Origin: Rhodovulum sp. PH10 | GTDB lineage: Bacteria; Pseudomonadota; Alphaproteobacteria; Rhizobiales; Xanthobacteraceae | NCBI RefSeq assembly: GCF_000293785.1 | Contig: NZ_AKZI01000052.1 | Coordinates: forward strand, 1-39,122 | Length of the DNA: 39,122 bases | Direction of reading: 5' to 3' | In this document: positions 13,652-32,940 of the stretch, piece after piece | Numbering within the stretch: the stretch's first letter is position 1 | Layout: every line of letters starts with the position of its first letter | Translations under genes and position numbers: made by a program | The notes under the pieces: model-generated | What the model was told of the DNA's origin: nothing | What the model saw: the letters and a program-made list of their open reading frames with translations, nothing else | Databases searched by the model: none

Positions 13652-13675
13652 CGGCGGGAGGGAGCGGACGGCGGT

Positions 13676-13766: not shown

Positions 13767-13784
13767 CTGGCTGGGGGACGAGGA
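13767..13784. repeat. attL: 18-bp copy of the tRNA-Gln 3' end
   Basis: The 18 bases are identical to 32923-32940, which cover the encoded CCA, the discriminator, the 3' acceptor strand and the start of the T stem of tRNA-Gln, plus one base outside. The next base on each side differs. Duplication of a tRNA 3' end beside an integrase is the classic sign of site-specific integration. Confidence 0.85.
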
Positions 13785-13858
13785 CCCCAAGTCCACCATA
13801 CATCAAGACCCTGTCATGCAATACTTCTTCTGAAATTCAGCTGCTTGTGAGCTAAGGC

Positions 13859-13881
13859 CGTGTACTAAGCTCGTGTGCTAA
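13859..13881 (+). promoter_or_regulatory. Left paired decamers, probable integrase arm-type sites
   Basis: CGTGTACTAA at 13859-13868 and CGTGTGCTAA at 13872-13881 are separated by three bases. The same arrangement (CGTGTACTAA, three bases, CGTGCACTAA) occurs near the other island end at 32849-32871. Tandem short repeats close to both att sites are typical of tyrosine integrase arm-binding sites. The pair ends 12 bases before the integrase start, so binding there could also repress the gene. Confidence 0.55.
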
Positions 13882-13893
13882 TGGGGGCGAGGC

Positions 13894-15591
13894 ATGGCCG
13901 ACACGCGGTATCTCAAGCAGCGACGGCAGGGGTGGTACTTTCAGTTGGGCGTGCCCGCAGACCTGCAAGCCAAGGCTGGCCGGAAGGTGATCGTCGAGAG
14001 CCTCGGCACACGCGATTTGGTCAAAGCGCAGAAGCTCCGCTGGCCGAAGGTCGCGCAGTGGACCGAGGCGTTCGAGCGGATGCGCGGCAACATCCCGCTC
14101 ACCTCTGCCGAGATCGAGGAACACGCACAGCGTGCTTTTCAATCCCACCTCGTCGAAATGGACAGAATGGGCAAGGACCGCCACGTCGGAGGCAGCTCAG
14201 AACTCTTCGAGTTGGGACAGCAGTTGGAGCTGCTGGCGGATGCTGCAGCGGCCGGGGACTTCGGGTCCGTTGCCCGCGAGATCACCGAGATCGAGAAGCG
14301 AGTCGGCGTCGAAGTTCCTGAGGGCTCGCGCGAGCACAGGAAGCTCAGCGAGGCGCTCATGAAGGCGCAGTATCATGCCGTCATGGGGCGCCAACACGCG
14401 CTTCAGGGTCGGCCGTACGATCCACCTCCGAGCTTTGGCTCCGCTCCCCTGATCGACCCCATCCTTCTCCGCCCTATCCGTCCCGCAGTCGCTGCCCGTC
14501 CTCATCGCGACGGCGCCGGAATGCGGTTCACTGAAGCGGCGACCCGGTACATCGACGAGCTACAACGCGACGACACTGCGAAGGTCACCGAGCAGACGCG
14601 GATGCAGCACGAAGCCGTGTTCCGGCTGTTCGGGCAGTACGTGCACGACGCCCCGTTGACCGACATCACGGGCGAGAATGCCAGCGCGTTTCTCGAGGCG
14701 GTGGCGAAGCTGCACCCGTGCTGGGGGCGATCCCCGGCGACCAAGAAGCTCACTGTTTGGGAGCTGCTCGACCGCTTCGCCGGCGGTGAGGAGCACCTCA
14801 GCAACAGGACGCTCAACCGGTACGTCTCATCCCTCGCGTCGGTGTTCAAGTGGGCGAAGAAGCGCCAACACTACAAGGGCCCGAACCCATTCGCGGAGCA
14901 GGGCTACGCGAAGCCGGACCCGAAGGAGACGATCTGGCTACCCTACCGGAACGACGAGTTGAGCAAGCTCCTGCGTTCCTCTTTACTTCTCGGGGCTGTC
15001 CCATCGGAGCGCATCGAGCCCAAACAACACGGGATGAAGCACTGCTTGATGTGGTTGCCGCTCATGGCCCTGTTCACCGGCATGCGCTCCGGCGAGCTGT
15101 GCCAGCTCCACACCGACGACTTGGCCGAGGAAGACGGCGTCACCTACTTCCGCGTTCACGCGGACCGGGAAGGTCAGCGCGTGAAGACAGAAGCCGCGAT
15201 CCGACACGTGCCCGTGCATTCCATGCTCATCGAATGTGGGCTGCTCGACTACGTCCGGGCTCTGCCGAAGGGACAGCTCTTCCCGGCATTGAAGCCCGGC
15301 GGCCCCGACCAGAAGCTGAACTGGTATTTCGGCAAGCGGTTCACCACCTACCGCCGCAGTGTCGGGGTGAACCGCCGTCGCGTGTCATTCCACAGCCTGC
15401 GCAAGAACGCGGCGCAGGCACTCAAAAATGCCCGAGCCACACCGGCCGAAATCGCTGAGCTGATTGGTCACGAGCGTGGGTTCACGGTCGAGACGTATGC
15501 GCCGCTGGAGCTGCCCATGCCGGCCCTCCAGGAGCTGATCGAGCGGATCGCGTATCCGGGCCTCGATCTTACCCACCTTCTGGCACGATGA
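13894..15591 (+). CDS. Tyrosine site-specific integrase (DUF6538 type)
   Basis: A 565-residue phage-type integrase, probably responsible for inserting the island at tRNA-Gln. The N-terminus (RYLKQRRQGWYFQLGVPADLQ) is the DUF6538 arm-binding-like region, followed by a helical core-binding domain (about 205-320). The catalytic domain has Arg398 in FTGMRSGELC, His500 and Arg503 in FHSLRKNAA, His526 in LIGHERG and Tyr535 in VETYAPLE, so all active-site residues are present. GGGGGCGAGG precedes the ATG. It lies just inside attL and reads into the island. Its stop overlaps the ATG of the integrase remnant behind it. Confidence 0.93.
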   Translation: MADTRYLKQRRQGWYFQLGVPADLQAKAGRKVIVESLGTRDLVKAQKLRWPKVAQWTEAFERMRGNIPLTSAEIEEHAQRAFQSHLVEMDRMGKDRHVGGSSELFELGQQLELLADAAAAGDFGSVAREITEIEKRVGVEVPEGSREHRKLSEALMKAQYHAVMGRQHALQGRPYDPPPSFGSAPLIDPILLRPIRPAVAARPHRDGAGMRFTEAATRYIDELQRDDTAKVTEQTRMQHEAVFRLFGQYVHDAPLTDITGENASAFLEAVAKLHPCWGRSPATKKLTVWELLDRFAGGEEHLSNRTLNRYVSSLASVFKWAKKRQHYKGPNPFAEQGYAKPDPKETIWLPYRNDELSKLLRSSLLLGAVPSERIEPKQHGMKHCLMWLPLMALFTGMRSGELCQLHTDDLAEEDGVTYFRVHADREGQRVKTEAAIRHVPVHSMLIECGLLDYVRALPKGQLFPALKPGGPDQKLNWYFGKRFTTYRRSVGVNRRRVSFHSLRKNAAQALKNARATPAEIAELIGHERGFTVETYAPLELPMPALQELIERIAYPGLDLTHLLAR

Positions 15592-15900
15592 AGGTCTCGC
15601 TGCGGACCCGCGAGCCGGGAGTCGCCAAGGCACGGATGGGTCTCGCGGAAGCCCGGTTCCAGGCGTTTTGTGACGGTGTCCGCCACGGCCCCGTCACCCT
15701 CCTCACCTTCAGCGGTGCCCGCATCGGCGAGATCGCCCAGCTCTGGGGCAAAGGCATCACCATCATCGACGGTGTTCCGGTGATGAAGATCGTGCTGGCC
15801 GAGGATGGTGGCTCACTGAAGAATGCGAACTCCGAGCGGACCGTGCCGATCCATCCAGCCGTCATCGAGCGCGGATTTCTCGAGTTCGTGCGGTACCGAC
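15588..15900 (+). pseudogene. Remnant of a second tyrosine integrase
   Basis: The reading frame stays open from 15588 to 16103 (171 codons), but only about the first 100 residues look like a protein. Residues 1-32 (VSLRTREPGVAKARMGLAEARF) match the N-terminal stretch of alphaproteobacterial integrases. Residues 36-102 (FSGARIGEIAQLWG, then SERTVPIHPAVIERGFLEFVR) match the start of a catalytic domain, with its first Arg. The whole core-binding region between them is gone, as are the HxxR and Tyr boxes. After FLEFVR the translation becomes Arg/Pro-rich noise. It is an internally deleted, truncated integrase, evidence of an earlier or composite integration event. An ATGA overlap joins it to the intact integrase. 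Confidence 0.75.
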
Positions 15901-16241
15901 CGAGAACGCGTCGAAGACCGGCAAGCGCCCCCCCCTGTTTCACCGGGCCGAGTAGCGAACGCGCCGGCCGATGCCGCTGCGCGAGCAGGTCGCACCGCCT
16001 CGCCTTCCACCGGCGTCGACCGGGAACGGCAGCGCCGAGAGCGGCGGATCGACGGCCGACCTTCGGGTTCGGCGGCCCCTTGCCGGCGCCCAGAATGGGG
16101 TGACAGGCCGGCCGGAGTGACGCACACCGGAAGCTCGCGCCGTTCGCGGCGGCGAGCGAGTCGCAGGGTGGCGCCGCCGGTTCGGCGGACACGGGCGAGA
16201 GGGGACCGGCGGATCCGGCTGCCGGGGGCGAGGAGACGGGC
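15901..16241. other. Non-coding stretch before hsdM
   Basis: The tail of the integrase-remnant frame crosses most of this region but its translation looks non-coding. No convincing promoter, hairpin or other gene is seen. GGGGCGAGGAGACGGG just before 16242 provides the hsdM ribosome site. The promoter of the hsd operon presumably lies here but could not be located by eye. Confidence 0.5.
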
Positions 16242-17777
16242 ATGCTCACGGGCGATTTGCGCAACAAGATCGACCTGATCTGGAACGATTTTTGGACGGG
16301 CGGGCTGTCGAACCCGCTCCAAGTCATCGAGCAGCTCACCACCCTGATGTTCATCAAGGGCCTCGACGAGGAGCAGACCCGCGAGGAACGGAAGGCCAAC
16401 ACGCTCGGCACGCCCGCCCGGCGCATCTTCCCGAGCGGCAAGGACAAGGCCGGCGAGCCCTACGAAAACCTCCGCTGGTCGAAGTTCAAGCACTTCGAGC
16501 CGCGCGACATGTTCCGGGTGGTCGACGAGCACGTCTTCCCGTTCATCCGCGAGCTGAACGGCGACGGCACCGCCTATGCCAAGCACATGCGGGACGCCCG
16601 GCTACAAATCCCCGGCCCCGCGCTGCTCGCCAAGGTGGTCGACAAGCTCGACGCGCTGGAGATGGGCGACCGCGACACCCGCGGCGACGTCTACGAGTAC
16701 ATGCTCGCAAAGATCGCCTCGGCCGGCCAGAACGGGCAGTTCCGTACGCCGCGGCACATCATCGCGACGATGGTCGAGCTGGTGCGGCCGACCCCGGACG
16801 ACACGCTGTGCGATCCCGCCTGCGGCACCTGCGGCTTCCTGGTCGCAGCCGGCGAATATTTGCGGCAAAACCACCGTGAGCTGTTCCGCAGCGAGCGGCG
16901 CAAGGCGCACTTCAACGAGACGCTGTTCAACGGCTTCGACTTCGACCCGACGATGCTGCGCATCGGCGCCATGAACATGGCCCTGCACGGCGTCGAGAGC
17001 GCGAACATCGCCTATCGCGACAGCCTCGCCCAGGACCACGCCGAGGACGCCGGCCGCTACACGCTGGTGCTCGCCAATCCGCCGTTCGCCGGCTCGCTGG
17101 ATTACGAGACCACCGCCAAGGAGCTGCTGCGCACCGTCAAGACCAAGAAGACCGAGCTTCTCTTCCTGGCCCTCTTCCTGCGGCTCCTGAAGGTCGGCGG
17201 CCGCGCCGCGGTGATCGTGCCGGACGGCGTGCTGTTCGGCTCGTCGAAGGCCCACAAGGACATCCGCAAGCTCCTTGTCGAGGAGAACAAGCTTGAGGCG
17301 GTGATCAAGCTGCCGTCGGGCGTGTTCCGCCCCTATGCCGGCGTCTCGACCGCCATCCTGGTGTTCACCCGCACCGGCGTCGGCGGCACCGATGCCGTGT
17401 GGTTCTACGACGTGCGGGCCGACGGCTGGTCGCTCGACGACAAGCGCCAGCCGCTGCTGGCGGACGAAAAGCTCGGGCCGACGCCAAAAGCCGAGCTGGA
17501 CGAGGCCGACGCGGCCAAGAACGATCTACCAGATCTCGTGATGCGCTGGGAGGAGCGCGACGGCGCCGAGCGCGAGCGCCCCCGCACCGCGCAGAGCTTT
17601 TGCGTGCCCAAGGCCGACATCGCCGCGGCGGGATACGACCTCTCGCTCAACCGCTATCGCGAGATCGAGCACGAGGAGGTTTTGCACGAGAGCCCGGCGG
17701 CGATCTTGGCCGATCTTCGCCGGATCGAGGCGGAGATTTCGGAGGGAATGACGCGGCTCGAGGAGATGCTGGGGTGA
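16242..17777 (+). CDS. hsdM: Type I restriction-modification methyltransferase (HsdM)
   Basis: A 511-residue N6-adenine DNA methyltransferase subunit. The N-terminal helical HsdM domain (LRNKIDLIWNDFW) is followed by the SAM-binding motif DPACGTCGF at 191-199 and the catalytic NPPF at 279-282, with FDFDPTMLRIGAMNM between them. It would form M2S complexes with HsdS to protect host DNA, and R2M2S2 with HsdR to restrict. It overlaps hsdS by four bases (GTGA), so the two are coupled. The subunit set looks most like the EcoEI-type group, judged from HsdR. Complete and apparently functional. Confidence 0.94.
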   Translation: MLTGDLRNKIDLIWNDFWTGGLSNPLQVIEQLTTLMFIKGLDEEQTREERKANTLGTPARRIFPSGKDKAGEPYENLRWSKFKHFEPRDMFRVVDEHVFPFIRELNGDGTAYAKHMRDARLQIPGPALLAKVVDKLDALEMGDRDTRGDVYEYMLAKIASAGQNGQFRTPRHIIATMVELVRPTPDDTLCDPACGTCGFLVAAGEYLRQNHRELFRSERRKAHFNETLFNGFDFDPTMLRIGAMNMALHGVESANIAYRDSLAQDHAEDAGRYTLVLANPPFAGSLDYETTAKELLRTVKTKKTELLFLALFLRLLKVGGRAAVIVPDGVLFGSSKAHKDIRKLLVEENKLEAVIKLPSGVFRPYAGVSTAILVFTRTGVGGTDAVWFYDVRADGWSLDDKRQPLLADEKLGPTPKAELDEADAAKNDLPDLVMRWEERDGAERERPRTAQSFCVPKADIAAAGYDLSLNRYREIEHEEVLHESPAAILADLRRIEAEISEGMTRLEEMLG

Positions 17778-18967
17778 GTGTCGTCGCCCGCTCGTGCCCG
17801 ACCGTCTCCCCGCCTGTTGGCATGCGACCACTGGGAGAGGTGATCGAATTCCGAAATGACATCGTTCATCCCAAGGATCGCCCTCACGGACCGGCGACCT
17901 TTGTCGGCCTGGAGCACATCGAGCGTGACACCGGCATCAGGATCGGATCGGAGCAGATACGCCTCGAAGATATGACCGGCCGGCGGGCGAGATTCTGTCG
18001 CGGCGACATCGTGTATGGCTACCTTCGCCCCTATTTGAACAAAGTTTGGATCGCCGAGTTCGATGGCTTGTGTTCGGTCGATCAGTACGTATTCAAAGTC
18101 CGCTCAATCGCCGATCGCAATTACGTCGCATATTTTCTGAGAAGCGACCAGTTTCTCAAGACGGCTCCTATCGGGATCTCGCCAGGCCAACTGCCAAGGA
18201 TCAGGTCCGGCGAGATCGTCGAAACGCTCATTCCCCTCCCGCCTCTCGATGAGCAGCGGCGGATTGCGACGATCCTCGACCAAGCCGACGACCTGCGGCG
18301 GAAGCGGCGGCAGGCGCTGGAATATCTAACGCTCTTGCCGCAAGCTTTCTTCACTAACATGTTTGGGGACTGGTCGCGACCAGGCTTCAATGGTCGCTTA
18401 TTCGAACTGGGCGAAAGGATCGATTTTCTAACTAGCGGATCGAGGGGCTGGGCTGAATTTTATCGAGAGACAGGCGACCTCTTTATTCGCATACAAAACG
18501 TTAAACATGATGAGTTGGACCTGGGTGACGTTGCCTTCGTTAATCCTCCGCCAACGGCCGAAGCGCGCCGTACAAGGGTTCAACCAGGTGATGTTTTACT
18601 CAGCATCACGGCCGACCTCGGAAGAACGGCCGTTATTCCAACTGGTATTGGAGATGCGTACATCAATCAACATCTTTCAATCATCAGGTCTTCGAGGCTT
18701 GAGCCGCGTTATTTGTCGGCAGCGTTGGCTAGCCGTGCCGGCCAAGCTATAATACAGCGAAAAAATCGCGAGGGTGTGAAAGCTGGATTGAACTTCGACG
18801 ACATCCGAACACTGAGGGTTCCCGATGTGCCCCTCGACCTCCAACGTGCCTTTGCGGCTCGCGTCGCCGAGATCGATGCGCTGAAAGCAAAGCACCGCGC
18901 CCACTTGGCAAAACTCGACGCGCTGTTCGCCTCCCTTCAGCATCGCGCATTCCGAGGAGAGCTGTGA
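17774..18967 (+). CDS. hsdS: Type I specificity subunit (HsdS)
   Basis: A 397-residue DNA-recognition subunit with the usual two target-recognition domains. TRD1 covers about residues 17-150 and ends in the conserved PLPPLDEQRRIATILDQAD helix. TRD2 covers about 200-345, followed by a second conserved helix (LQRAFAARVAEIDALKAKH). GTG at 17774 overlaps the hsdM stop and is taken as the start; ATG at 17822 is an alternative that would lose 16 residues outside TRD1. Codon use in TRD2 (about 18400-18800) is visibly more A+T-rich than in hsdM, which fits the well-known swapping of these domains between strains. The DNA target cannot be predicted. Confidence 0.9.
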   Translation: MSVVARSCPTVSPPVGMRPLGEVIEFRNDIVHPKDRPHGPATFVGLEHIERDTGIRIGSEQIRLEDMTGRRARFCRGDIVYGYLRPYLNKVWIAEFDGLCSVDQYVFKVRSIADRNYVAYFLRSDQFLKTAPIGISPGQLPRIRSGEIVETLIPLPPLDEQRRIATILDQADDLRRKRRQALEYLTLLPQAFFTNMFGDWSRPGFNGRLFELGERIDFLTSGSRGWAEFYRETGDLFIRIQNVKHDELDLGDVAFVNPPPTAEARRTRVQPGDVLLSITADLGRTAVIPTGIGDAYINQHLSIIRSSRLEPRYLSAALASRAGQAIIQRKNREGVKAGLNFDDIRTLRVPDVPLDLQRAFAARVAEIDALKAKHRAHLAKLDALFASLQHRAFRGEL

Positions 18968-18978
18968 TGCCCTCTCCC

Positions 18979-19140
18979 GGCCTCATGGTGAGGAGCGGCC
19001 ACCCGGGCCCGCGCATCGCGCGGCCCGAGTGTAAACTCCGGCCGCGTGTCGAACCATGGGGCCGCCCCGGCCCTTCGAGTCTCGGCCTTCGGCCCAGCGC
19101 CTCGGGACGAGGGCGGATCGAAGCTGCGGACGCGTGGGGA
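18979..19140. repeat. REP-like dispersed palindromic repeat between hsdS and brnT
   Basis: The 183-base gap after hsdS has features of an intergenic repeat frequent in Bradyrhizobium-like genomes: CTCATGGTGAGGAGC near 18982, a GC-rich palindrome around 19000-19030 (GCGCATCGCGC), and GTCGAACCATGGGGC near 19048 that answers the first string (CATGG/CCATG). A GGCCTTCGGCC hairpin lies near 19084. This is recognition from memory, and only one copy is in the window. Its position inside the hsd operon suggests that it, or the brnTA pair, came in later. Confidence 0.5.
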
Positions 19141-19150
19141 GCGCACTGAC

Positions 19151-19450
19151 ATGCCCCTCCTGTTCGACTGGGACCCGGCGAAAGCGGCGAGCAACCTCGT
19201 CAAGCACGGCGTCGCCTTCGACGAGGCCATGACGGTCTTCCGCGATCCGCTGGCGCTGTCGGTGCTCGACCCGGACAGCGCCGACGAGGAACGCTGGATC
19301 ACGCTCGGCTCCGCCGCGACTGGAAATCTGCTTCTGGTTGTGCACACTTGGGCCGACATCGGTCGGCATCGCACCGTGGTCCGCATCATATCGGCGCGAC
19401 GGCCGACCCGTAACGAGGCGCAGCGCTATCGCGAGGAACCTCCGACATGA
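19151..19450 (+). CDS. brnT: BrnT-family toxin
   Basis: A 99-residue protein of the BrnT family (RelE-like fold ribonuclease of a type II toxin-antitoxin system). FDWDPAKAASNLVKHGVAFDEA is the family signature at the N-terminus, and RIISARRPTRNEAQRYRE is the typical C-terminal motif. ATG at 19151 was chosen since homology begins there; the frame is open further upstream across the repeat. Its stop overlaps the antitoxin ATG (ATGA), as is normal for this pair. It is unusual in lying between hsdS and hsdR, on the same strand. Confidence 0.93.
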   Translation: MPLLFDWDPAKAASNLVKHGVAFDEAMTVFRDPLALSVLDPDSADEERWITLGSAATGNLLLVVHTWADIGRHRTVVRIISARRPTRNEAQRYREEPPT

Positions 19451-19647
19451 GAGACGAGTACGATTTCTCGAAAGCCGAGCGCGGCAAATTCTTCCGGCCC
19501 GGCGCCGAGGTGATCCCGCCGGTGCATCTCGACCCCGAGGTGCTGGCCTTCCTCGCCGCCCGCGCCGAAGCCCGCGGGATTTCGCTGAGCGAGCTGGTCA
19601 ACACGCTCCTGAAGAAAGACATCGAGCTGATCGAGGCGGCCGAGTAG
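19447..19647 (+). CDS. brnA: BrnA-family antitoxin
   Basis: A 66-residue antitoxin partner of BrnT. The N-terminal part (YDFSKAERGKFF) is expected to wrap the toxin, and the C-terminal part is a ribbon-helix-helix-like DNA-binding segment (VHLDPEVLAFLAARAEARG, then SLSELVNTLLKKDIELI), so the complex should repress its own promoter. It overlaps brnT by four bases, and 13 bases separate it from hsdR, so hsdR is likely cotranscribed and may fall under BrnTA autoregulation. Confidence 0.93.
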   Translation: MRDEYDFSKAERGKFFRPGAEVIPPVHLDPEVLAFLAARAEARGISLSELVNTLLKKDIELIEAAE

Positions 19648-19660
19648 ACGCGCACCCGCG

Positions 19661-22600
19661 ATGTCCCAGTTCGCTTTCCTGCAAGCCGAATTTCCCGAAA
19701 TCTTTGCCCACGCCTCGCGGGCCGAGAGCTTGGTGCATGGCGACCCGCGCAGCGCGGCCTTCTACGGTCGCCTCGCTTTGGAGACCGCGGTCGGCTGGCT
19801 CTATCGGCACGACGGCAGCCTGAAGCATCCGTTCGAGCGGACGCTGGCGGCGCTGATCGCCGAGCCGACCTTTCAAACGCTGGTCGGGCGCACGCTCGCC
19901 GTCAAGGCGCGGTTCGTGAAGGACACCGGCAACGCCGCCGCCCACGGCAAGCCGGTCTCCCCCGGACAGGCCGCGACGGCGGTGCGCGAGCTTTTTCACG
20001 TCGCCTACTGGCTCGCCCGCACCTATGCCCGCGGCGAGAAGCCCGCGGCCGATGTGACGTTCTCCATGGAGGCGCTGCCGCGGCTCACCGAGGTGCCGGC
20101 GACGACGCTCGCCCGGCTCCAGGAGATCGGTCGCCGCTTCAAGGAGACGATCGAGGCGCGGGACGAGGCCGAGGCCGCCCGCCGAGCCAGCGAGGACGGC
20201 CGTGCGGCGCTCGAAGCCGAGCTGGCCGCGGTGCGGGCCGAGATCGCCGCCACCAAGGCCGCCAACCAGGCGATCCCCGACACCCACGACTACAGCGAGG
20301 CCGAGACCCGCGACCTCTTCATCGACCTCCTGCTGCGCGAGGCCGGGTTCGACCCGCAAGCGCCCGGCTGCACCGAGGTCCCGGTCACCGGGATGCCGAA
20401 CGGCACCGGCCAGGGTTTCGTCGACTACGTGCTGCGCGGCGACGACGGCAAGCCGCTGGCGCTCGTCGAGGCCAAGCGCACCCGCAAGGACCCGGCCGTC
20501 GGCCGGCAGCAGGCAAAGCTCTACGCCGACTGCCTGGAGGCGCAGCACGGTCAGCGGCCAGTGATCTTCTACACCAACGGCTACGAGCACTGGATGTGGG
20601 ACGACACCCGCTATCCGCCGCGGCCGATCCAGGGTTTTCTCGCAAAGGACGAGCTGGCGCTGCTGATCCAGCGGCGAAGCACCCGAAAGCCGCTCGCCCC
20701 CGAGGACATCGACCGCGCCATCGTCGAGCGCCCCTATCAGCACCGCGCCATCCGCCGCATCACCGAGGCGTTCGAGCGGGACAAGCAGCGCAAGGCCCTG
20801 GTCGTGATGGCGACCGGGGCCGGCAAGACCCGCACCGTGATCGCTCTGTGCGACCTCCTGATGCGGGCCAACTGGGTGAAGCGGACGCTCTTCCTCGCCG
20901 ACCGCACCGCGCTGGTGAAGCAGGCCGCCAACGCCTTCAAGGCGCATCTGCCGGGCGCCGCGACCGTGAACCTCTTGGAGGACAAGCGCCAGGAGGGCCG
21001 GGTCTATGTCTCGACCTACCCGACGATGATGGGGCTGATCGACGAGACGGACGTCGGCGGGCGCCGCTTCGGTGTCGGCCATTTCGACCTCGTGGTGATC
21101 GACGAGGCGCACCGCTCGGTCTATCGGAAATACCGGGCGATTTTCGAGTATTTCGACAGCCTGCTGGTCGGCCTCACGGCGACGCCGAAGGACGAGGTCG
21201 ACCGCGACACCTACCGCCTGTTCGATCTGCAGACCGGAGTCCCGACCGACGCCTACGGGCTCGACGAGGCGGTCGAGGACGGCTTTCTCGTGCCGCCCCG
21301 CGCCGTCTCGCTGACCACCGACTTCCTCGACCGCGGCATCCGCTACGATCAGCTCACCGACGACGAGAAGGAGGCGTGGGACGCGCTCGAATGGAGCGAC
21401 GACGGCACCGTGCCGGGGGCCGTGGAGGCGCCGGCGATCAACAAGTGGCTGTTCAACGCCGACACGGTCGACCGCGTGCTGCAGCACCTGATGGAGAACG
21501 GGCAGAAGGTCGCGGACGGCGACCGGCTCGGCAAGACCATCGTCTTCGCCAAGAACCACGACCATGCGGAGTTCATCGCTAGGCGGTTCGACGTCGCCTA
21601 TCCGCACCTCGCCGGGCGGTTCGCGCGAGTGATCGACTTTCAGGTCAATTATGCCCAGTCGTTGATCGATGCCTTCTCCGATCCCGACAAGGACCCGCAC
21701 ATCGCCATCTCGGTCGACATGCTCGACACCGGCATCGACGTGCCGGAGGTGGTCAATCTGGTGTTCTTCAAGCCGGTGCGCTCGAAGACCAAGTTCTGGC
21801 AGATGATCGGGCGCGGCACACGTCTCTGCCCGAACCTGTTCGGACCGGGCTCGCACAAGGAGTTCTTCTACGTCTTCGACTGGTGCCGCAACTTCGAGTT
21901 CTTCGACCAGAACCCGCAGACGACGGAGGGCTCGGGCGGCGAGAGCCTCGGCAAACGCTTGTTCACGGCCCGCGTCGACATCGTCGCGACACTGGACGGA
22001 GCCCGGCCGGCGCACGGCACCGGTGGCGCCGACTGCACTTACACGCAGGTGGAGACGCCGGTACTCCATGCCGGCGAGCCGGGATCCGAGGTGGATCGGG
22101 CGGCCGAGGTCGAGGCCCTGCGAGATGCCCTCGCGGTCGATCTCCGCGCGGAAGTTTCGGGCATGAGCCTCGACAACTTCCTGGTCCGGCCGAAGCGCCG
22201 CTTCGTCGAGAAGTACAGAACCGAGGCGCCGTGGCAGCGGATCGACGCCGATGCTCGCCAGGAGCTGGTCGAGCACGTCGCCGGGCTGCCGTCGGCGGTG
22301 ACGGACGACGACCTCGCGGCGAAGCAGTTCGACCTTCTGGTCTTCCGTGCCGAGCTGGCGCTACTGCGGGTCGAGGCTTCGTTTCAGCGGTTGCGGAAGC
22401 AGATCACCGACACCGCCGCGTCGCTCGAGCTGCTCGCCAACGTGCCGATGGTGGCGGCCGAGATGGCGCTGATCCACGAGGTGCAGACGGACGCGTTCTG
22501 GCAGGACGTCACCCTGCCCATGCTGGAGACCGTCCGCCGACGTCTCCGCGCTCTCGTGAAGCTGATCGAGCCCGGCAAGCGGCCGCTCGTCTACTCCGAT

Positions 22601-23125
22601 TTCGAGGACCGGACCGGCACCGCGACCGAGATCACGGTCGCCGGGATCTCGGTCGGCACCGATCTCGCCGCGTTCCGCCGAAAGGCCCGGGTATTCCTGA
22701 AACCGTTCGAGAACCACCTCGCCATCCTGAAGCTCAGGCGCAACGAGCCGTTGACGCCCACCGATCTCGTCGAGCTGGAACGCATCTTCACCGAGGCGGG
22801 CGTCGACGAGGAGTCGATCGACCGGCTGAAGACCGACGGAGGGCTCGGCCGCTTCGTGCGCTCGCTGATCGGGCTCGATCGCGAGGCGGCGAAACTCGCC
22901 TTCGCCGAGTTCCTGGATGGCCGCAATCCGACGGCCAACCAGCTGGAGTTCGTCGGCCTGGTCATCGACCACCTGACCGAGCGCGGCGTGATGGACCCGA
23001 AGCTCCTTTACGAGACCCCGTTCACGGACTTCGACACCAATGGCGTGGAGGGCGTTTTCCCCGAGCCGGATGTTCGCCGCTTGGTTCAAATCCTGCGAGA
23101 CGTCGAGGCCCGGACGGCAGCATGA
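19661..23125 (+). CDS. hsdR: Type I restriction enzyme, R subunit (HsdR)
   Basis: A 1154-residue restriction and translocation subunit. A DUF4145-like N-terminal helical region (about 10-125) is followed by a coiled coil (about 135-205). The nuclease domain has VDYVL near residue 254 and the E270-A-K272 of the PD-(D/E)XK fold. The superfamily 2 motor has MATGAGKT at 383-390, DEAH at 481-484 and IGRGTRLCPNLFG as motif VI. The C-terminal helical part resembles the EcoEI R subunit. With HsdM and HsdS it would cleave unmodified foreign DNA after translocation. No frameshift or lost motif is seen. Separated from hsdS by a repeat and brnTA. Confidence 0.95.
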   Translation: MSQFAFLQAEFPEIFAHASRAESLVHGDPRSAAFYGRLALETAVGWLYRHDGSLKHPFERTLAALIAEPTFQTLVGRTLAVKARFVKDTGNAAAHGKPVSPGQAATAVRELFHVAYWLARTYARGEKPAADVTFSMEALPRLTEVPATTLARLQEIGRRFKETIEARDEAEAARRASEDGRAALEAELAAVRAEIAATKAANQAIPDTHDYSEAETRDLFIDLLLREAGFDPQAPGCTEVPVTGMPNGTGQGFVDYVLRGDDGKPLALVEAKRTRKDPAVGRQQAKLYADCLEAQHGQRPVIFYTNGYEHWMWDDTRYPPRPIQGFLAKDELALLIQRRSTRKPLAPEDIDRAIVERPYQHRAIRRITEAFERDKQRKALVVMATGAGKTRTVIALCDLLMRANWVKRTLFLADRTALVKQAANAFKAHLPGAATVNLLEDKRQEGRVYVSTYPTMMGLIDETDVGGRRFGVGHFDLVVIDEAHRSVYRKYRAIFEYFDSLLVGLTATPKDEVDRDTYRLFDLQTGVPTDAYGLDEAVEDGFLVPPRAVSLTTDFLDRGIRYDQLTDDEKEAWDALEWSDDGTVPGAVEAPAINKWLFNADTVDRVLQHLMENGQKVADGDRLGKTIVFAKNHDHAEFIARRFDVAYPHLAGRFARVIDFQVNYAQSLIDAFSDPDKDPHIAISVDMLDTGIDVPEVVNLVFFKPVRSKTKFWQMIGRGTRLCPNLFGPGSHKEFFYVFDWCRNFEFFDQNPQTTEGSGGESLGKRLFTARVDIVATLDGARPAHGTGGADCTYTQVETPVLHAGEPGSEVDRAAEVEALRDALAVDLRAEVSGMSLDNFLVRPKRRFVEKYRTEAPWQRIDADARQELVEHVAGLPSAVTDDDLAAKQFDLLVFRAELALLRVEASFQRLRKQITDTAASLELLANVPMVAAEMALIHEVQTDAFWQDVTLPMLETVRRRLRALVKLIEPGKRPLVYSDFEDRTGTATEITVAGISVGTDLAAFRRKARVFLKPFENHLAILKLRRNEPLTPTDLVELERIFTEAGVDEESIDRLKTDGGLGRFVRSLIGLDREAAKLAFAEFLDGRNPTANQLEFVGLVIDHLTERGVMDPKLLYETPFTDFDTNGVEGVFPEPDVRRLVQILRDVEARTAA

Positions 23126-23649
23126 TCAGGAGAATGCTGTGGCCAACTCCCGTTGTTGGCGAAGCAACATTTGCACCCGATTGGCACCACCCGCGCATAT
23201 TGTCACCATTTTCGGCGGTAAATACCTGAGTTCGTTAGCTTCGCACGAGACACTTTGTCTCTTGGCAAAAGGTATTGATTTTTCGGTATTTTTCTGTTGA
23301 CGCAATGCCGAACATGTAGGATTGTCTCGCCATCGCGTTACCCAATCCTCGGGTCTGACGAGCCCCTGTAAAAAGCTCGCCACTCACCATAGCCAGAACC
23401 AGCGGCCTCGGGGCCGCATTCCCGATCATGGGCCGACCAAAGCCCGTGAGCGGATTGGGCATGGTAAGGCCGCCGTCCCCATAAAGCCTTCCCGTCCAGT
23501 AGAACGGCCCCATCGCACTGGTTTCCGGCAGCGACGATTAGTGTCGTCGCACAGGCCCTGAACGGGAGCCTGACCAAGCCTCGTTCACCAACGGCACTGC
23601 CACACGCCGATGCCTTCGATCCGATCTCGTCGGCGACTTGGAGAAAGAC
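23126..23649. other. A+T-richer intergenic region after hsdR
   Basis: No gene is supported in these 524 bases; minus-strand open frames here resemble nothing known. A hairpin (GCCAAC at 23142-23147, GTTGGC at 23155-23160) follows the hsdR stop by 17 bases, without a T-tract. From 23160 to 23330 the base composition is clearly more A+T-rich than anything nearby. A possible -35 box is TTGACG at 23297-23302, with a poor -10 (GATTGT) 17 bases on. The following gene, starting at 23650, may use it. Confidence 0.4.
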
Positions 23650-24339
23650 TTGAACACGACCACCAACAACATCAACGACACGACGAAGAACGCGACCCCG
23701 ACCGAAACTCGCGGATTGGGCCTGACCGAGCAGCTCGTCGAGGCGCGATGCTGGGCGCTCGGCGAGCAATACCGCCGCCTCCCGATCTGTGATGCGGAAA
23801 GTGCACTGCTCGAAAAAGAAGACTCCTTCATCATCGTGCTGGGCTACGGCTTCATCGCGCATAAAGCGAAGGAGCAGCTCGACCGCATTTTTAACGAGCG
23901 TCGATGGACGGACGAGGGGTCGCTCGACCACGTCGACCTGATGACGACGCTCGCGAAAGGATACGACTTACTGCTCCGGGGCGACGAAGAATGGTCCGAT
24001 CAAGTCGAGGAAACCGGAACTCAGCCGGACGCCGATGTGGACCAGTTCCTCGCCTTCTTGGCCGATGTCCATGCGACTTCCTCGGACGGCCGGACGACAA
24101 TCTGGGCCTACGCCTTCTCACAAGGCTTCGATCCGCAGTCTGCGAAACACATCGCGGACGGCATCTCGACCCTTGATGTGGTGGCCGATGCAATCGCGAC
24201 GGAGATGGGCGTCGTGGGAGAATGGAAGACCGTTCCCGAGCCCCTTCGCGATCTCGTCACGAGCGCCCAGATCTCCAGCTACCCCGAGGTGGTGTATGAG
24301 CGGGTGCTGCTGAAGCGTGCGCGATCGGTCGCGAACTGA
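23650..24339 (+). CDS. Unknown 229-residue acidic protein
   Basis: I do not recognise this protein. It is acidic and soluble, with no signal peptide or membrane helix. A Thr/Asn-rich N-terminus (about 1-20, with several NTTTNN-like runs) is followed by a mostly helical body. Distinctive stretches are LGYGFIAHKAKEQLDRIFNERRW, MTTLAKGYDLLLRGDEEW, and VDQFLAFLADVHATSSDGRT. The start is TTG at 23650, six bases after GGAGAAA; another in-frame TTG at 23638 lacks a ribosome site, and no ATG or GTG is available near the N-terminus. It lies alone between hsdR and the helicase-like gene, inside a defence-rich island, so a role in defence is possible but not shown. Confidence 0.6.
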   Translation: MNTTTNNINDTTKNATPTETRGLGLTEQLVEARCWALGEQYRRLPICDAESALLEKEDSFIIVLGYGFIAHKAKEQLDRIFNERRWTDEGSLDHVDLMTTLAKGYDLLLRGDEEWSDQVEETGTQPDADVDQFLAFLADVHATSSDGRTTIWAYAFSQGFDPQSAKHIADGISTLDVVADAIATEMGVVGEWKTVPEPLRDLVTSAQISSYPEVVYERVLLKRARSVAN

Positions 24340-26801: not shown

Positions 26802-26802
26802 C

Positions 26803-27388: not shown

Positions 27389-27434
27389 ACGAGGCGCATG
27401 GTGCCGGCGGTTCCGACGAGGGAGGGGGATGGTC

Positions 27435-28064: not shown

Positions 28065-28201
28065 CCGCAACCACGACAGAGACCGGGCGTCCGCAACCCC
28101 CATAGACCAGCGAAGGGCGGAAAGCCTGCGCGTCACCGATCTTCGATCGCGCAGGGGAGGAGATGGCACGGGCGTGAGGAGCGCATTGCCCTCTGGGGCT
28201 C

Positions 28202-29299
28202 CTACGCTCCTTTCGACCAGTTCGGAAAAAGCTCCTTCAGGCGCTCGACCGTATGGCGCCACTTCGGCGTCTTCGGTGCGCAAACGGTGTTCTGGTTCCC
28301 GAACATGCCGGCCTCGTTCACCGCCTCCGACAAAGGCCGCGTTTCGGCCCAGTCGATCGCGACGAACATCTCGCGCCGGTCGGCATCGTCGAGAGACATC
28401 CGGTGGTAGTCGGCGCGGGCCAGAACCTCCAACGCGGGGCGTTCCACGCCATCCTCGCCGACCACCGTGAACTCGTTGGCCGGCGTGGCGCTCTTGCGGA
28501 CACGTCCGACGCCGACAAAACCGTAGCCGGGCGCCTTCACCCATACGAGATCGCCCGGCGTGAGCAGTCTCAGCGTGCCGCTGTACCAAGCGCCACCGCC
28601 AGCGGAGATGAAGCCGTAGCGCCGAGCGTCCTCCCAGTCACGGTTCTCCCCTTGCCCGAAGCAGGCGTAGTATTCTCCGTTCCACGGCTCCGAGCTTGTG
28701 AGGCTCCCACCGGCAGCGGCCGCGATCTGCGCCTCGACCGGATCGCGCAGCCAGGCGCGGCTCAACAAGAGGCCGGGTTCGGTGTCGAACACCTGGAAGC
28801 ACAGCACGTTGATCGGAATGTCCCGGCTGTTCAGGTAGCCGACGATCCGCTCGCTCGCGGCGTCGAGTTCTGATGCGACGATCACGATCTGATGGCTCTG
28901 GTTCAGAAGCTCCGGGTCGAGGGGCTGACCGAAGCGCTGGGCGAACGCCTCGTCGAGGGATCGCCCCTTGGCGAACCGCGTGTAGATGCGGGCGATGTCG
29001 TCGGCGTGGAGATGCTCGGCCCAGCTCGCGTAATCGAGCGCCTGCGCCACGACCTCACGCGGGGTTCTGCCGCGTTTCAGCTCGACCAGAATGAGCGTCC
29101 CGTCGGGTGCCAGCGCGAGCAGATCGATCCGTCCCCCGAAACCGGTGTCTTCCTGCCGGCCAACGATCATCCACTCCCGCGAGAGTATTTCCGGCGCGGC
29201 GACGATCATGTCCTCCAACAGCAATTCGCTCGGGAGGCTCGCCTCGCGAAGGGCGCGGGGCTCGCTTCCGACGCGCCAAAGGCTGTGCTGAATGGGCAT
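28202..29299 (-). CDS. PD-(D/E)XK nuclease, DUF91/NucS-like, with possible PUA/EVE-like domain
   Basis: A 365-residue protein. The N-terminal half has a restriction-type nuclease core: GRIDLLAL (Asp59), ILVELKRG (Glu73, Lys75) and a QALDY motif (86-90), as in RecB/NucS-like nucleases. The C-terminal part (about 240-310, FGQGENRDWEDARRYGFIS, then WYSGTLRLLTPGDLVWV and YGFVGVGRV) resembles PUA/EVE-like small domains that read modified bases; this is from memory and less sure. Such a pairing would suit a modification-dependent (type IV) restriction enzyme. ATG at 29299 was chosen over longer frames because GAAGGA lies upstream and homology begins near there. It is divergent from the TIR gene and convergent with the resolvase. 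Confidence 0.7.
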   Translation of the reverse strand: MPIQHSLWRVGSEPRALREASLPSELLLEDMIVAAPEILSREWMIVGRQEDTGFGGRIDLLALAPDGTLILVELKRGRTPREVVAQALDYASWAEHLHADDIARIYTRFAKGRSLDEAFAQRFGQPLDPELLNQSHQIVIVASELDAASERIVGYLNSRDIPINVLCFQVFDTEPGLLLSRAWLRDPVEAQIAAAAGGSLTSSEPWNGEYYACFGQGENRDWEDARRYGFISAGGGAWYSGTLRLLTPGDLVWVKAPGYGFVGVGRVRKSATPANEFTVVGEDGVERPALEVLARADYHRMSLDDADRREMFVAIDWAETRPLSEAVNEAGMFGNQNTVCAPKTPKWRHTVERLKELFPNWSKGA

Positions 29300-29681
29300 C
29301 GAATGTCCTTCTTCGCCGAATACGCCACTGGCGTGTGTTGCGATCGGCATTCTATCAGAGTCGTGCGGACGATGATGCACCGGGCTCCGCCGCTCGGGTC
29401 GACGACAAGCCGAACGGGCTCACCCGATGCATGGCATCAGGAACGAGCCGGTGGACCCCGAGGTGTCGCCGGCGAGCCGGGAAGGGAGGCGGCAGGGCGG
29501 GCACGGCCCGTGTTGATCCGCCCCTCTCGATCAGTGTTTTTGGCGGCTCGGTGCCAGCCGAGGGCGGGCTCAGCCGATGCTGGCCGACGAACAATCGTCG
29601 GCTGTTCTCTGCCACGCACGGTTGCCGTCCGTAGCTCTCCGGCCGTAGTCTCGTGCTCGGGCATCTCGGCGCGGGGCGCGG
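29300..29681. other. Divergent intergenic region between the nuclease and TIR genes
   Basis: No gene is supported in these 382 bases. On the minus strand TAGAAT at about 29355-29350 is a good -10 candidate for the nuclease gene, about 50 bases from its start, but no clear -35 is seen. A small hairpin (CGGCT/AGCCG near 29552-29568) is present. Nothing obvious serves the TIR gene. Confidence 0.4.
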
Positions 29682-31919
29682 GTGGCAAAAGTCTTCATCA
29701 GCTACACCGGGGTCGATCGTGCGTGGGCGCACTGGATCGGGGTGACGCTGCGCGACAACGGCCACGTTCCGTTCGTTCACGAGTGGGAGGTCGGAGCGGG
29801 CCAGAACGTGCCGCGCTGGATGGAGCAGCGGATCAGGGAGGCCGATCACCTTCTCGGCGTGTTCTCGAACGCCTATGCCCGAGGCGTCTACTCGAATGCC
29901 GAGCGCTGGGCCGCCTACTGGCAGGACCCGGAGGGCCGTGACGGGTTTCTGGTGCCGGTCGAGGTCGAGACCGTCACCGACTGGCCACCGCTCGCCAGGC
30001 CGCTGAACCGGCTGTCGCTGGTCGGGAAGACCGAGGGCGAGGCGGAGGAGGCGCTGCTCGCGTTTCTCGAGCCGCCGGCACCACCGGCCACACGGCCGCC
30101 GTTCCCCGGCGCGGCTCCGTCTGCGACGAGCACTGCGCCGGCCGCCGGAGGCAACGGATCGGGGACACCCTCTTCGTTCATCGACCGCAGCGAGCCTCTT
30201 CCGGCGGCCCGCCCGACGCTGCCGAGCGCCGAAAGCTCGGCCGGAGCAAGCGGCGGAGGAGGTGGAGGTCGCTCGAAGCCGCCCGGCGAGGTTCCCTCCG
30301 GGGCGGACGAAGTTCCAGACCCAAGCGACCGCGATGCCTTCGAGGCGTGGCTTCGATCGAAGCCCGGAAGTTGTTCGGTCGTGATCGCGGCCCGTGCGGC
30401 TCTACGAGCGCTGCCTTTCGTCAGATGGCGTAAACTGACAGAAAACGACGCTGCAACCATCGCGTTGCCGATCTTTCGTGCGACCGCGGTTTCGCGATTT
30501 GCCTCGGTGTACACAAATCACAAAACCGCCAACGCTGCCGACAACGCCGCCGTCGATATGAGTATCGCCGCCGAAATCACCGACATTGACCTCGACGCTG
30601 TCAGAGCCGAGGCTGCCGCTAAAGCCGCTGCCAGATTCGCCGCATACGCTGTCGCCAGAGCCGGCGACGCAAAAGCCGCCGCCACTGCCGCCGTCTACGC
30701 TGGTGACGCTACCGGCTTCGCCGCAACCGCCGCCACTCGAGCGGATGCTCGGCAGTTGAGCAGGGGTGTACCTCCCGCGCAACTAGCGCGAGTGCCGCTG
30801 TGGCCCACAGAAACCGACGGGATTCCGTCAGCACTCACTGAACGACGGAACGAATTGGCGGCCGACCTCGGACGTCTCGGTAGCCACTGGCGCGTCTGGC
30901 TGAACTGGTACGACGAGATCCTTGCCGGCTCGCCGCCGTCGCCGGAACGGAGCGAGGCATGGGACGCGGCCTTCACCGACGTGAACGAGCCGCTGCCGTG
31001 GGACGACGGACCCGAGGCCGTGAACCTCGCGATCCAGGCGCGGCTCGATGCGCTGAGCGTGGAAGAAGCGTCGGCCGAGATCCCGGATCAGACTGCGGCG
31101 CCAGTCCGTGTCGAGGAGCGAGGCGGCAAGGTCGCTTCCGTCCGTGATCGCGACAGTCCGCTCCGCGCGAGCGAACGCGACTTCGAGGCGTGGCGGGAGC
31201 CGGTCGTCGAGCACATCCAGGAACTGGCGTCCGGCGACTTCGCCGAAGGCACCAACCACAGCCGCATCCGTGATCGGCTCGTGAGCCTGGGGCGACTCTT
31301 GCCGGGCGACATCGCCGACGTGAAGGAGCGCCAGTTCCGCATCGGCTACGAGATCGAGCGCTTCGAGCGCCTGATCGCGGCCTACCGCTCCGGCGGGGAC
31401 GACATGCCGGCGATGAACGCGGCGAGCCTGGAGGACCTGGAGGCGCTGCGCATCGCGTTGTCCATGGGCGTCGACAAGCTCGAACGCTGGGGCGAGTTCC
31501 GGCGGCTCGCCGCCGCCGACCCGAAGCGCGAGGGTGAGGCGGACCGCGAGGCCGTGGGCGAAGCGATGGACGAGATGGCGGCCGACATGGAGCGGAAGCC
31601 GGCCTATTTCGATCCAGAGCTTCCGGCGTCGTTCCGCTTCCTCGCCGAAGCGGTGAAGGACCCGCTGGGCGCCACCAAGACCATCGTCTACGGCGCCGTG
31701 AAGAGCGTCGAGAACCTTTTCAGCTTCCTCGGAAGAAGGGCGCTCGGGCTCGGGCGAAAGGTGTTCGACGAAGCCGAGAAGCCGATCCCGAAGGCCGTCG
31801 CTGCGTCTCTCCTGCTTGGGCTTGCCGATGCCGCGCTGAAGCTGTCTGAGGCACTCCCCCAGGGCTGGGCATGGCTCGAGCCGCTGCTCGCAAGCCTCGC
31901 CCGATCGAGCGGGCTTTGA
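29682..31919 (+). CDS. TIR-domain protein with Ala-rich middle and C-terminal helical region
   Basis: A 745-residue protein starting at GTG 29682 (weak GC-rich ribosome site). Residues 1-130 form a TIR domain: VFISYTGVDRAWAHWIGVTL, then WEVGAGQNVPRWMEQRIREAD and SNAYARGVYSNAERWAAYW, where Glu74 is the likely catalytic residue of NAD-cleaving TIRs. A Pro/Ser/Gly-rich linker follows (130-225). An Ala-rich repeat-like stretch (about 285-355) is A+T-richer than the rest. After it comes a motif I have seen in many alphaproteobacterial proteins (LWPTETDGIP, then WRVWLNWYDEILAG). The end (about 660-745) is helical and moderately hydrophobic, perhaps membrane-seeking. Bacterial TIR proteins often cause abortive infection by NAD depletion; that role here is inferred. 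Confidence 0.75.
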   Translation: MAKVFISYTGVDRAWAHWIGVTLRDNGHVPFVHEWEVGAGQNVPRWMEQRIREADHLLGVFSNAYARGVYSNAERWAAYWQDPEGRDGFLVPVEVETVTDWPPLARPLNRLSLVGKTEGEAEEALLAFLEPPAPPATRPPFPGAAPSATSTAPAAGGNGSGTPSSFIDRSEPLPAARPTLPSAESSAGASGGGGGGRSKPPGEVPSGADEVPDPSDRDAFEAWLRSKPGSCSVVIAARAALRALPFVRWRKLTENDAATIALPIFRATAVSRFASVYTNHKTANAADNAAVDMSIAAEITDIDLDAVRAEAAAKAAARFAAYAVARAGDAKAAATAAVYAGDATGFAATAATRADARQLSRGVPPAQLARVPLWPTETDGIPSALTERRNELAADLGRLGSHWRVWLNWYDEILAGSPPSPERSEAWDAAFTDVNEPLPWDDGPEAVNLAIQARLDALSVEEASAEIPDQTAAPVRVEERGGKVASVRDRDSPLRASERDFEAWREPVVEHIQELASGDFAEGTNHSRIRDRLVSLGRLLPGDIADVKERQFRIGYEIERFERLIAAYRSGGDDMPAMNAASLEDLEALRIALSMGVDKLERWGEFRRLAAADPKREGEADREAVGEAMDEMAADMERKPAYFDPELPASFRFLAEAVKDPLGATKTIVYGAVKSVENLFSFLGRRALGLGRKVFDEAEKPIPKAVAASLLLGLADAALKLSEALPQGWAWLEPLLASLARSSGL

Positions 31920-31976
31920 TCTTCTCTGGCAAATGCGGGCGTCGTGCCGCGGCCCCGATCACACAGGCGATCAGCA

Positions 31977-32792
31977 ATGGCCGAACCAAAGGATCCCGCG
32001 CGACAAAGAAGGGCCGATCAGGGTGTGAAGGCGCCCATGAGAAGCCCGGCGCGTTCGGGGGCGGCTGATCGCAAGGACGATCGGGGATGCGAAGTCCCAC
32101 CGCCATTGCCGAAAGACGATCTGCACAAGCTGCTGTTCGCACATTCTCCCGAGGCTGCGCGAGAAATCCAGGACTACGTCGAGTGGCAATGCCGGGGGGA
32201 AGAGAAGGTGCTGCATGTGGAGAAGGTGGCGAGCGAGCGGGTGCTCGGCCGTGAGCACGCAGTCTGGGACGTTCACACCGACAAGGAACGATGGTGGGTC
32301 GTGACCAACCCGACCAACCTCTACTCACAGACGCTCATGCCGAGCCTCGACTACACGCTCTCGTTCCACATCGGGTCGAGCTGACGCCGGCCAACGAGAC
32401 GCCCAAGAATGCCGACTTCCCGGCCTGGAACGAGCTGATCGGCAACGCAGTCGCGCCAGGACACTCCGCCGAGTATGTCCGCGCGTACCTGAAGACGACC
32501 GCAGAACGAGCTTGGCGACTGGTGAACTGGCTGACACACGCCTCCAGCGCCACGCGTGACGACGCCCGGATTGCCGTCGGTGCCACCGCCCACGTCGTCG
32601 ACAACTACGCCCTCGGCACCCTCGAGCGAAAGGCGAAGGCCCCCGAGCGCTGCGGGCGCTGCAACTCGTACAGGATCTCCGTCAGGTGGCGTCCCGAGGT
32701 CGGCCGACACGGAACCTACGTTTCTTTTTTGCGAAGCCTGCGGAGCCGAGAAGCTGCCGGCAAAGCAGCGCCATCGAGCGAGGCGAAGCTGA
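31977..32792 (+). pseudogene. Frameshifted gene beside the right island end
   Basis: Three pieces in different frames read as one protein. Piece 1 (ATG 31977 to TGA 32384) contains LHKLLFAHSPEAAREIQDYVEWQCRGEEKVLHVEKV and ends at SLDYTLSFHIG. Piece 2 (another frame, from about 32376) continues with PKNADFPAWNELIGNAVA and WRLVNWLTHASSATRDDA, then a Cys-pair motif CGRCNSYRISVRWRPE. Piece 3 picks up after a T6 run near 32724 as FCEACGAEKLPAK, completing a zinc-ribbon-like Cys4 end. I recall this protein type, of unknown function, in other Rhizobiales, where it is longer between pieces 1 and 2, so an internal deletion is likely too. Probably non-functional, unless the T6 shift is a sequencing error. 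Confidence 0.65.
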
Positions 32793-32848
32793 GGGCGTGA
32801 CCGTAGGCGACCCGTGCTCCGCCGGGGTGCCCCCCAGCCTGCGATCGA

Positions 32849-32871
32849 CGTGTACTAACGGCGTGCACTAA
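32849..32871 (+). promoter_or_regulatory. Right paired decamers, probable integrase arm-type sites
   Basis: CGTGTACTAA at 32849-32858 and CGTGCACTAA at 32862-32871, three bases apart, mirror the left pair at 13859-13881 in sequence, spacing and orientation. They lie about 50 bases inside the tRNA-side att site, the expected place for arm-binding sites of a tyrosine integrase. Confidence 0.55.
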
Positions 32872-32922
32872 GAGATGTATTCCGCATCGCCTAAGTTATT
32901 GATTTTCAAGGCCGATAGGTCA

Positions 32923-32940
32923 CTGGCTGGGGGACGAGGA
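32923..32940. repeat. attR: 18-bp repeat inside the tRNA-Gln 3' end
   Basis: Identical to 13767-13784. Here the repeat forms the true 3' end of the tRNA gene, so integration kept the tRNA intact at this end and left only a copy of its 3' end at the other. Excision between the copies would leave a single site within tRNA-Gln. Confidence 0.85.

Follow-up and report, generated by a model that had tools for sequence, protein, structure and literature searches.

Islands that lie in tRNA or tmRNA genes, encode a tyrosine integrase, carry defense cargo and lack transfer genes are a known kind of genetic element. Three of them, I23, I44 and I55, occur in Pseudomonas fluorescens SBW25, and the tmRNA island I55 is moved by a jumbo phage, according to the part of the account available (PMC12595487). 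In this study, we analyzed positions 1–39,122 of contig NZ_AKZI01000052.1 of Rhodovulum sp. PH10 (the window), and characterized a 19.2-kb island within it. Like I23, I44 and I55 as described in that part of the account, the island has a tyrosine integrase near one end, a short direct repeat, defense cargo and no recognized transfer genes (PMC12595487). In contrast, the SBW25 islands measure 23–55 kb and lie at the 3′ end of tmRNA, whereas the Rhodovulum island is at a tRNA-Gln gene, and the shared genes named for them there are intY, alpA, yqaJ, a helix-turn-helix gene and a Gp2-like gene, with no helicase or serine recombinase (PMC12595487). AlpA, an I55-like feature of the end far from the integrase, had no match among the window frames scanned; here and below these comprise 23 island frames for Pfam, including some shadow frames, and 10 for PHROGs, with small frames covered in part. 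The Rhodovulum island encodes a helicase that recurs in similar elements of distantly related bacteria, which suggests a mobile-element family that has not been described. In our reading, this helicase, in many cases together with a small serine recombinase, marks the backbone of a family of elements that are compact and non-conjugative, mostly target tRNA genes and often carry defense genes, and it is their hallmark. No description of the helicase, or of elements built around it, was found in the open-access literature. A parallel is provided by pipolins, which, in the portion of their description at hand, are likewise diverse and often tRNA-integrated, are united by one hallmark DNA-processing protein, and commonly have tyrosine recombinases and restriction-modification genes; their hallmark is the DNA polymerase piPolB, whereas ours is a helicase, and no polymerase was matched in the frames scanned (PMC9710591). 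Hitcher genetic elements need a helper to move between cells, as we propose for the island, but they are a broad class for which the accessible part of the source names no helicase family (PMC11389934). Many defense islands have an integrase yet no visible means of transfer. A recurrent hallmark gene is a handle for finding such islands in genomes and for testing how they move, and it helps to separate backbone from cargo in the hunt for new defense systems.

The island is bounded by a perfect 18-bp direct repeat, CTGGCTGGGGGACGAGGA, which occurs in the window as two exact copies only (Table 1). With up to three mismatches allowed, three matches were found, compared to a mean of 0.11 in shuffled sequences, and none of 100 shuffles reached three. 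The tRNA-Gln gene (anticodon CTG in the DNA) was found intact by ARAGORN and by Rfam (67.9 bits), and because of its position the right repeat copy comprises the 3′-terminal 17 bp of the tRNA plus 1 bp beyond. GC content is 66.2% on the island and 70.1% and 71.4% in the flanks, a step that agrees with the repeat boundaries. An initial annotation made from the sequence had described the flanking repeat, the intact tRNA-Gln(CUG) at its right copy and an intact tyrosine integrase inside its left copy, and each of these was borne out. The integrase is an open frame of 565 aa in which the catalytic motifs are present, as an R / HxxR / H / Y pattern spanning residues 395 to 536. In attP sites of the lambda type, arm sites lie on both sides of the core. 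Paired repeats of the GTGTACTAA type inside both ends of the island look like such integrase arm sites. A search with GTGTACTAAnnnCGTGYRCTAA (up to three mismatches) located them at 13847–13881 and 32850–32871, with 0 expected from 100 shuffles, 62 bp inside the left core and 51 bp inside the right core. On an excised circle, the repeats would thus sit ~50–60 bp to either side of the core, as expected of attP. The reading of the locus as a tRNA-Gln(CUG)-integrated, defense-carrying, non-conjugative island is thus supported by its exact direct repeat, its arm-type repeats and its intact integrase, and by the lack of transfer genes among the frames scanned. Repeats common to both inner ends were also found in 11 of 12 other delimited elements that carry the helicase, although some are just 9–10 bp and possibly due to chance. 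Those of the window and of loci L054, L063 and L097 have a GTAC-centred motif in common (GTGTACTAA, TGGTACACAG, CTGTACCTA, GCAATGGTACACG), perhaps the common arm-site motif of these elements' integrases.

From the repeat, we infer that the island was inserted into an empty site, and the initial annotation had proposed to look for that site in relatives as a junction with a single repeat copy. No such junction was found: among the 40 genomes searched and the five genus loci fetched, the kdpE side of the island is nowhere linked directly to its short-chain dehydrogenase/reductase (SDR) side. The query of tRNA plus right flank matched in 38 of the 40 genomes, the window's own being one of them, and most of these matches were due to the tRNA. 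In the five genus relatives, the side of tRNA-Gln due to hold the empty junction differs from the window, and what matches the window is the tRNA, together with short stretches of the right flank in two and a serine recombinase in one. KdpE had no match in these five loci, and neither KdpE nor KdpD had one in 22 tRNA-Gln loci from other genomes, some of which are represented by both a short and a long stretch; the SDR protein matched once in the same 22 loci, distantly and 9 kb from the tRNA. The arrangement that the initial annotation had set against an island, that is, the same genes in the same place without the 18-bp repeat, was seen in none of the relatives compared. Two other genomes bear on the tRNA itself. 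In G004 (L025, 10038–11903), the genus relative with the recombinase, tRNA-Gln(CUG) is accompanied by an integrase frame (profile E 5e-10) and by the serine recombinase, which shares 90% identity with that of the window. By sequence, these resemble the remnant of another element at the same tRNA, which thus appears to have been targeted repeatedly. In G122, from the same family, a different element bounded by a 17-bp repeat occupies the same tRNA-Gln(CUG), providing independent support for a tRNA-Gln(CUG)-integrated island in the window.

The helicase (641 aa) is named by no family library. In a 13-member alignment (A4), the GxGKT of Walker A, the DE of Walker B, LDA and Q...R...R are invariant, and Pfam ResIII gave weak matches in seven of the 13 members (best E 3.6e-5). 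An AlphaFold model (pLDDT 78, pTM 0.68) had DinG as its best Foldseek match (6fws, E 4.1e-11, TM 0.44). Judged by motifs and modeled fold, the protein is a superfamily 2 (SF2) helicase, and it appears DinG/XPD-like by predicted fold. Members of the DinG/XPD group have the motif order Walker A, DE(A), helical insert, LDAS, FTHK, QxxxRxxxR. The island helicase resembles them, CasDinG included, in its motif order and in its best Foldseek matches, but differs in that A4 has no conserved cysteines and that no sequence-profile match extends beyond Walker A. Specifically, a two-sequence profile of E. coli DinG and YoaA aligned over Walker A alone (20 columns, probability 3.9%), so DinG identity is unsupported by sequence profile, and a search of solved structures with the helicase sequence gave a best E of 0.28. 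Since A4 contains no invariant or nearly invariant cysteine, an iron-sulfur cluster of the DinG type is not expected.

The gene is rare. With the own genome counted, matches were found in six of 198 family genomes (including a weak one that was subsequently dismissed), five of 385 class genomes and nine of 398 phylum genomes (several weak); the weak matches in G869, G916, G827 and G610 were left out of the counts, and L060 (G004, E 5e-4) was dropped as a helicase locus, with no helicase frame called there. A collection of genome contigs yielded nothing to a single-sequence search and five loci to an alignment search, and the one IMG/VR contig with the helicase is the same element as a genome match. 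Among 72,556 plasmid records searched with four queries, three carry the helicase, each inside a repeat-bounded tRNA element, and none of 50,697 phage records matched either of two queries. Hosts include Ruegeria, Azospirillum, Propionivibrio, Eleftheria, and metagenome-assembled genomes (MAGs) of Parvibaculum and Nitrosospira, with Ruegeria sp. TM1040 and Azospirillum brasilense among the strains that carry such an element; in a MAG labelled Nitrospira, the helicase is on a contig of 3.2 kb that offers no context. In L092 (G763, 9224–11956), the helicase open frame is 910 aa long with ~300 extra N-terminal residues, and is possibly a fusion.

Of 22 distinct helicase loci fetched, 18 had usable context; L065 (a 3.2-kb contig), L068 and L079 (contig ends) and L080 (a partial gene) were left out, as was L081, which duplicates the L051 element, with 100% identity in the integrases and the recombinase. 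A tyrosine integrase was found in 17 of the 18, within 10 kb of the helicase except in G122 (15.6 kb). At the 18th, L077 (G399, 5249–14781), the helicase and a small serine recombinase lie inside an interrupted comM/yifB, with a 528-aa serine recombinase beside the helicase in place of a tyrosine integrase. Thirteen of the 18 helicases (the window and 12 others) lie between direct repeats of 17–122 bp, with one repeat copy forming a tRNA 3′ end. The tRNAs are those for Gln(CUG) twice, Gln(UUG), Val(GAC) three times, Val(CAC), Leu(CAG), Ala(CGC), Met, Ser(GGA), Gly(CCC) and Phe(GAA), or eight isotypes in all. Four tRNAs of the same loci that lie away from the elements gave repeats of at most 13 bp. 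The repeat-bounded elements span 6.9–19.2 kb, and the two smallest (6.9 kb in the Nitrosospira MAG and 7.2 kb in Azospirillum) have kept integrase and helicase. A small serine recombinase is present in 13 of the 18 loci. For 12 helicase copies in 11 genomes (G424, at a contig end, and G500 were left out), an integrase (PF00589) was found within 10 kb of 10 copies vs. 0.54 expected (P 8e-13), and a serine recombinase (PF00239) within 5 kb of seven vs. 0.12 expected (P 4e-12); because the copies share ancestry, and one genome contributes two of them, these P-values overstate independence.

Such a distribution could also arise if the helicase were itself a defense gene riding tRNA islands, with the integrase and tRNA site as the usual vehicle. 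Several anti-phage or anti-plasmid helicases have the same fold as the island helicase, and its 50 best Foldseek matches include Hna (9yhn), DdmD (9ix4) and CasDinG (7xf0, 8rfj), beside many housekeeping helicases. In addition, the elements do carry other defense genes, including type I restriction-modification in five loci (the window, L055, L066, L078 and L096) and SIR2-HerA in G122. As a control, we examined the candidate defense gene PDC-S11 of the same island. An integrase accompanied it in just two of 10 relatives fetched (one of the seven stronger matches) and a serine recombinase in none of the 10, whereas all 18 helicase loci with usable context have an integrase-type recombinase beside the helicase. 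These include the two smallest elements (L064 and L097), in which eight other small proteins, of 10 proteins compared with PADLOC, had no match at E 0.01. Moreover, PDC-S11 was matched in 58 plasmid records, of which 32 are typed as conjugative, in contrast to the three for the helicase, all of them tRNA elements. No phage record matched PDC-S11, and since the helicase has none either, this absence does not discriminate between the two. The control sample, 10 of 13 matches outside the window, is small, with two on contigs of 7–8 kb and three weak (E 1e-7 to 9e-4), and its integrase profile, being built from integrases of helicase loci, favors these by construction and may miss others; the density tests are independent of that profile. 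Small as it is, the control argues against a defense role for the helicase, which we consider unlikely.

The integrases of four tRNA-Val elements form one clade (support 100/100), together with that of L093, for which no integration site was found, and the window integrase pairs with that of an Azospirillum tRNA-Gln element (98/99). In the helicase tree, by contrast, the members from these elements lie scattered: a grouping of the four tRNA-Val helicases was rejected (approximately unbiased test, p 8e-94), as was a pairing of the window and Azospirillum helicases (p 5e-38), a pair picked after seeing the integrase tree. As the integrases group by tRNA-Val and the helicases do not, the modules have been reshuffled. 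Thus, helicase and integrase have recombined repeatedly and yet are still found together, and such repeated reassociation would be expected of a helicase that serves the element. It is also difficult to reconcile with an ordinary decaying defense island, in which a one-off insertion brought in unrelated genes and the helicase recurs by chance or shared descent. Decay is indeed visible in the window as a second integrase fragment and one broken gene, but the co-occurrence far above chance and the repeated reshuffling of helicase and integrase make that account very improbable.

The cargo of the helicase-bearing elements is varied. Besides the genes already mentioned, they carry SIR2, a GmrSD-like protein (NsnA and PD-T4-2 models) and a type II methyltransferase, with weak to strong matches to the PADLOC candidates PDC-S11, S32, S33 and M58A. 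Altogether, 12 of the 18 loci have a known or candidate defense gene among the proteins scanned; in the remaining six (L051, L064, L077, L092, L094 and L097), the scan covered part of the proteins present. Genes for antirepressors of the BRO/Ant type occur in L052, L053, L094 and L096, and the tRNA-Ala element of an Eleftheria terrae plasmid (L063, 16434–20348) encodes a 1304-aa internal virion protein (PHROG 342, E 6.8e-113), a possible link to phages. Together with the lack of a conjugation gene in the window frames scanned, and with the movement of similar tmRNA islands by a jumbo phage in the available part of that account (PMC12595487), these genes would suit phage satellites of a new type, whose helicase module replicates the circle or prepares it for packaging by a helper phage. 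On the other hand, the window frames scanned gave no virion, terminase or primase match, and its 10 frames compared with PHROGs matched none of the primase-helicase, capsid-altering or packaging genes of P4-like satellites or phage-inducible chromosomal islands. The helicase is absent from the phage records searched, and the virion gene is in one element only (few proteins of the others were scanned) and may be a separate insertion or a remnant. We therefore regard a satellite nature as quite improbable.

Taken together, these data make it probable that the island is a non-conjugative integrative element whose helicase and serine recombinase process the excised circle, with exchangeable defense cargo and helper-dependent transfer. 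The integrase would excise the element, rebuilding an attP of arms, core and arms and leaving the tRNA intact. The helicase would then act on the excised circle in replication or strand handling, and the serine recombinase may resolve multimers or exchange cargo. Type I restriction-modification, PDC-S11, the TIR protein and BrnTA would be exchangeable cargo that protects host and element alike. Because no transfer gene was found, with no match to a relaxase or secretion system, the hallmarks of integrative mobilizable or conjugative elements, in the window frames scanned, transfer would require a helper, for which a transducing phage is the simplest candidate. More tentatively, and possible rather than probable in our judgment, such elements may form an unrecognized family of minimal elements (6.9–19.2 kb) in Pseudomonadota and perhaps beyond. 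In such a family, the orphan DinG-like helicase, accompanied in most cases by a small serine recombinase, would serve replication or packaging preparation in helper-dependent transfer, the integrases would vary, up to a large serine recombinase in comM, and the defense genes would be payload. Several observations weigh against our main interpretation, the integrative element with its own circle-processing module. Neither an empty site nor excision was seen, and the likeness to DinG is one of predicted fold only (TM 0.44), with many housekeeping helicases in the same Foldseek list. No serine recombinase was found in five of the 18 loci; L051, L053, L067 and L093 have no tRNA repeat in the stretch fetched, and L077 has neither a tRNA nor a tyrosine integrase nearby. 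Among the loci of limited context, L080 (a 340-aa partial relative) has no integrase or recombinase in 12 kb, nor does L079 in 12 kb from its contig end, L068 has a recombinase and no integrase in 10 kb, and L065 is just a 3.2-kb contig. The G122 helicase is a weak profile match, and the G122 integrase is 25% identical to that of the window. Finally, a recurrent defense gene that prefers islands could produce much of the helicase pattern.

The remaining genes of the island are listed in Table 1. The type I restriction-modification system is complete, with hsdM, hsdS and hsdR together, and profile matches confirmed the cargo recognized at the outset (type I restriction-modification, BrnTA, a PD-(D/E)XK nuclease and a TIR protein). 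The remark in the initial annotation that no transfer genes are visible likewise holds for the frames scanned, in which no relaxase, secretion or virion gene was found. It had also suggested that two unnamed genes might act in defense; one of them encodes the SF2 helicase, for which the evidence suggests a backbone role. The gene for the 233-aa protein was present in one of 198 family genomes, its own.

Table 1. Features of the Rhodovulum sp. PH10 island, with positions in the window.
Feature	Position	Strand	Evidence or remark
attL core, left copy of the 18-bp repeat	13767..13784		
Probable integrase arm-type sites, three tandem 9-bp units	13847..13881	+	GTGAGCTAA / GTGTACTAA / GTGTGCTAA
Tyrosine integrase, 565 aa	13894..15591	+	DUF6538 + Phage_integrase; open frame
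Second tyrosine integrase, fragment (remnant)	15588..16103	+	Directly behind the intact one
hsdM, type I methyltransferase subunit	16242..17777	+	PDLC03021 E 1.1e-185
hsdS, specificity subunit	17774..18967	+	PDLC03069 E 1.9e-86; start uncertain, open frame from 17399
brnT, ribonuclease toxin of toxin-antitoxin pair	19151..19450 (start approximate)	+	PF04365 E 5.2e-25
brnA-like ribbon-helix-helix (RHH) antitoxin	19447..19647	+	Weak CopG/RHH matches, below cut-offs
hsdR, type I restriction subunit, DUF4145-like N-terminus	19661..23125	+	PDLC03047 E 6.2e-186
233-aa protein of unknown function	23638..24339	+	No family match beyond chance-level SIR2
SF2 helicase-like protein, 641 aa	24876..26801	+	GCGKT, WDEA, LDAS, FFTHK, QxxxRxxxR
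Small serine recombinase (resolvase/invertase type), 211 aa	27429..28064	+	
NucS-like PD-(D/E)XK protein, PADLOC candidate defense PDC-S11	28202..29299	-	E 1.3e-147
TIR-domain protein, 745 aa	29682..31919	+	PF13676 E 9.5e-22
One decayed gene in two frames (31944-32384, 32291-32800)	31944..32800	+	
Probable integrase arm-type sites, two units	32850..32871	+	
attR core, right copy of the 18-bp repeat	32923..32940		17-bp overlap with the tRNA 3′ end
tRNA-Gln(CUG), intact	32924..32997	-	ARAGORN, Rfam

The integrase fragment is likely the remnant of an earlier or merged element. Relatives of the TIR protein align to its N-terminal domain alone or to pieces of the remainder, and none of five relative loci inspected shared its gene context. 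At the right end, the two small frames were rejected as new-gene candidates, being pieces of one broken gene: three family relatives are single frames of 316–496 aa, whose residues 1–80 and ~153–247 correspond to separate reading frames of the window, the part in between being absent, and a fourth relative (L104) is itself a 151-aa piece. By eye, the three single-frame relatives have a Cys-rich, zinc-ribbon-like end. Elsewhere in the same genome, contigs C41 (14863–17278) and C59 (34435–36537) each hold a further adjoining pair of tyrosine integrase and serine recombinase matches, possibly additional elements of the same design.

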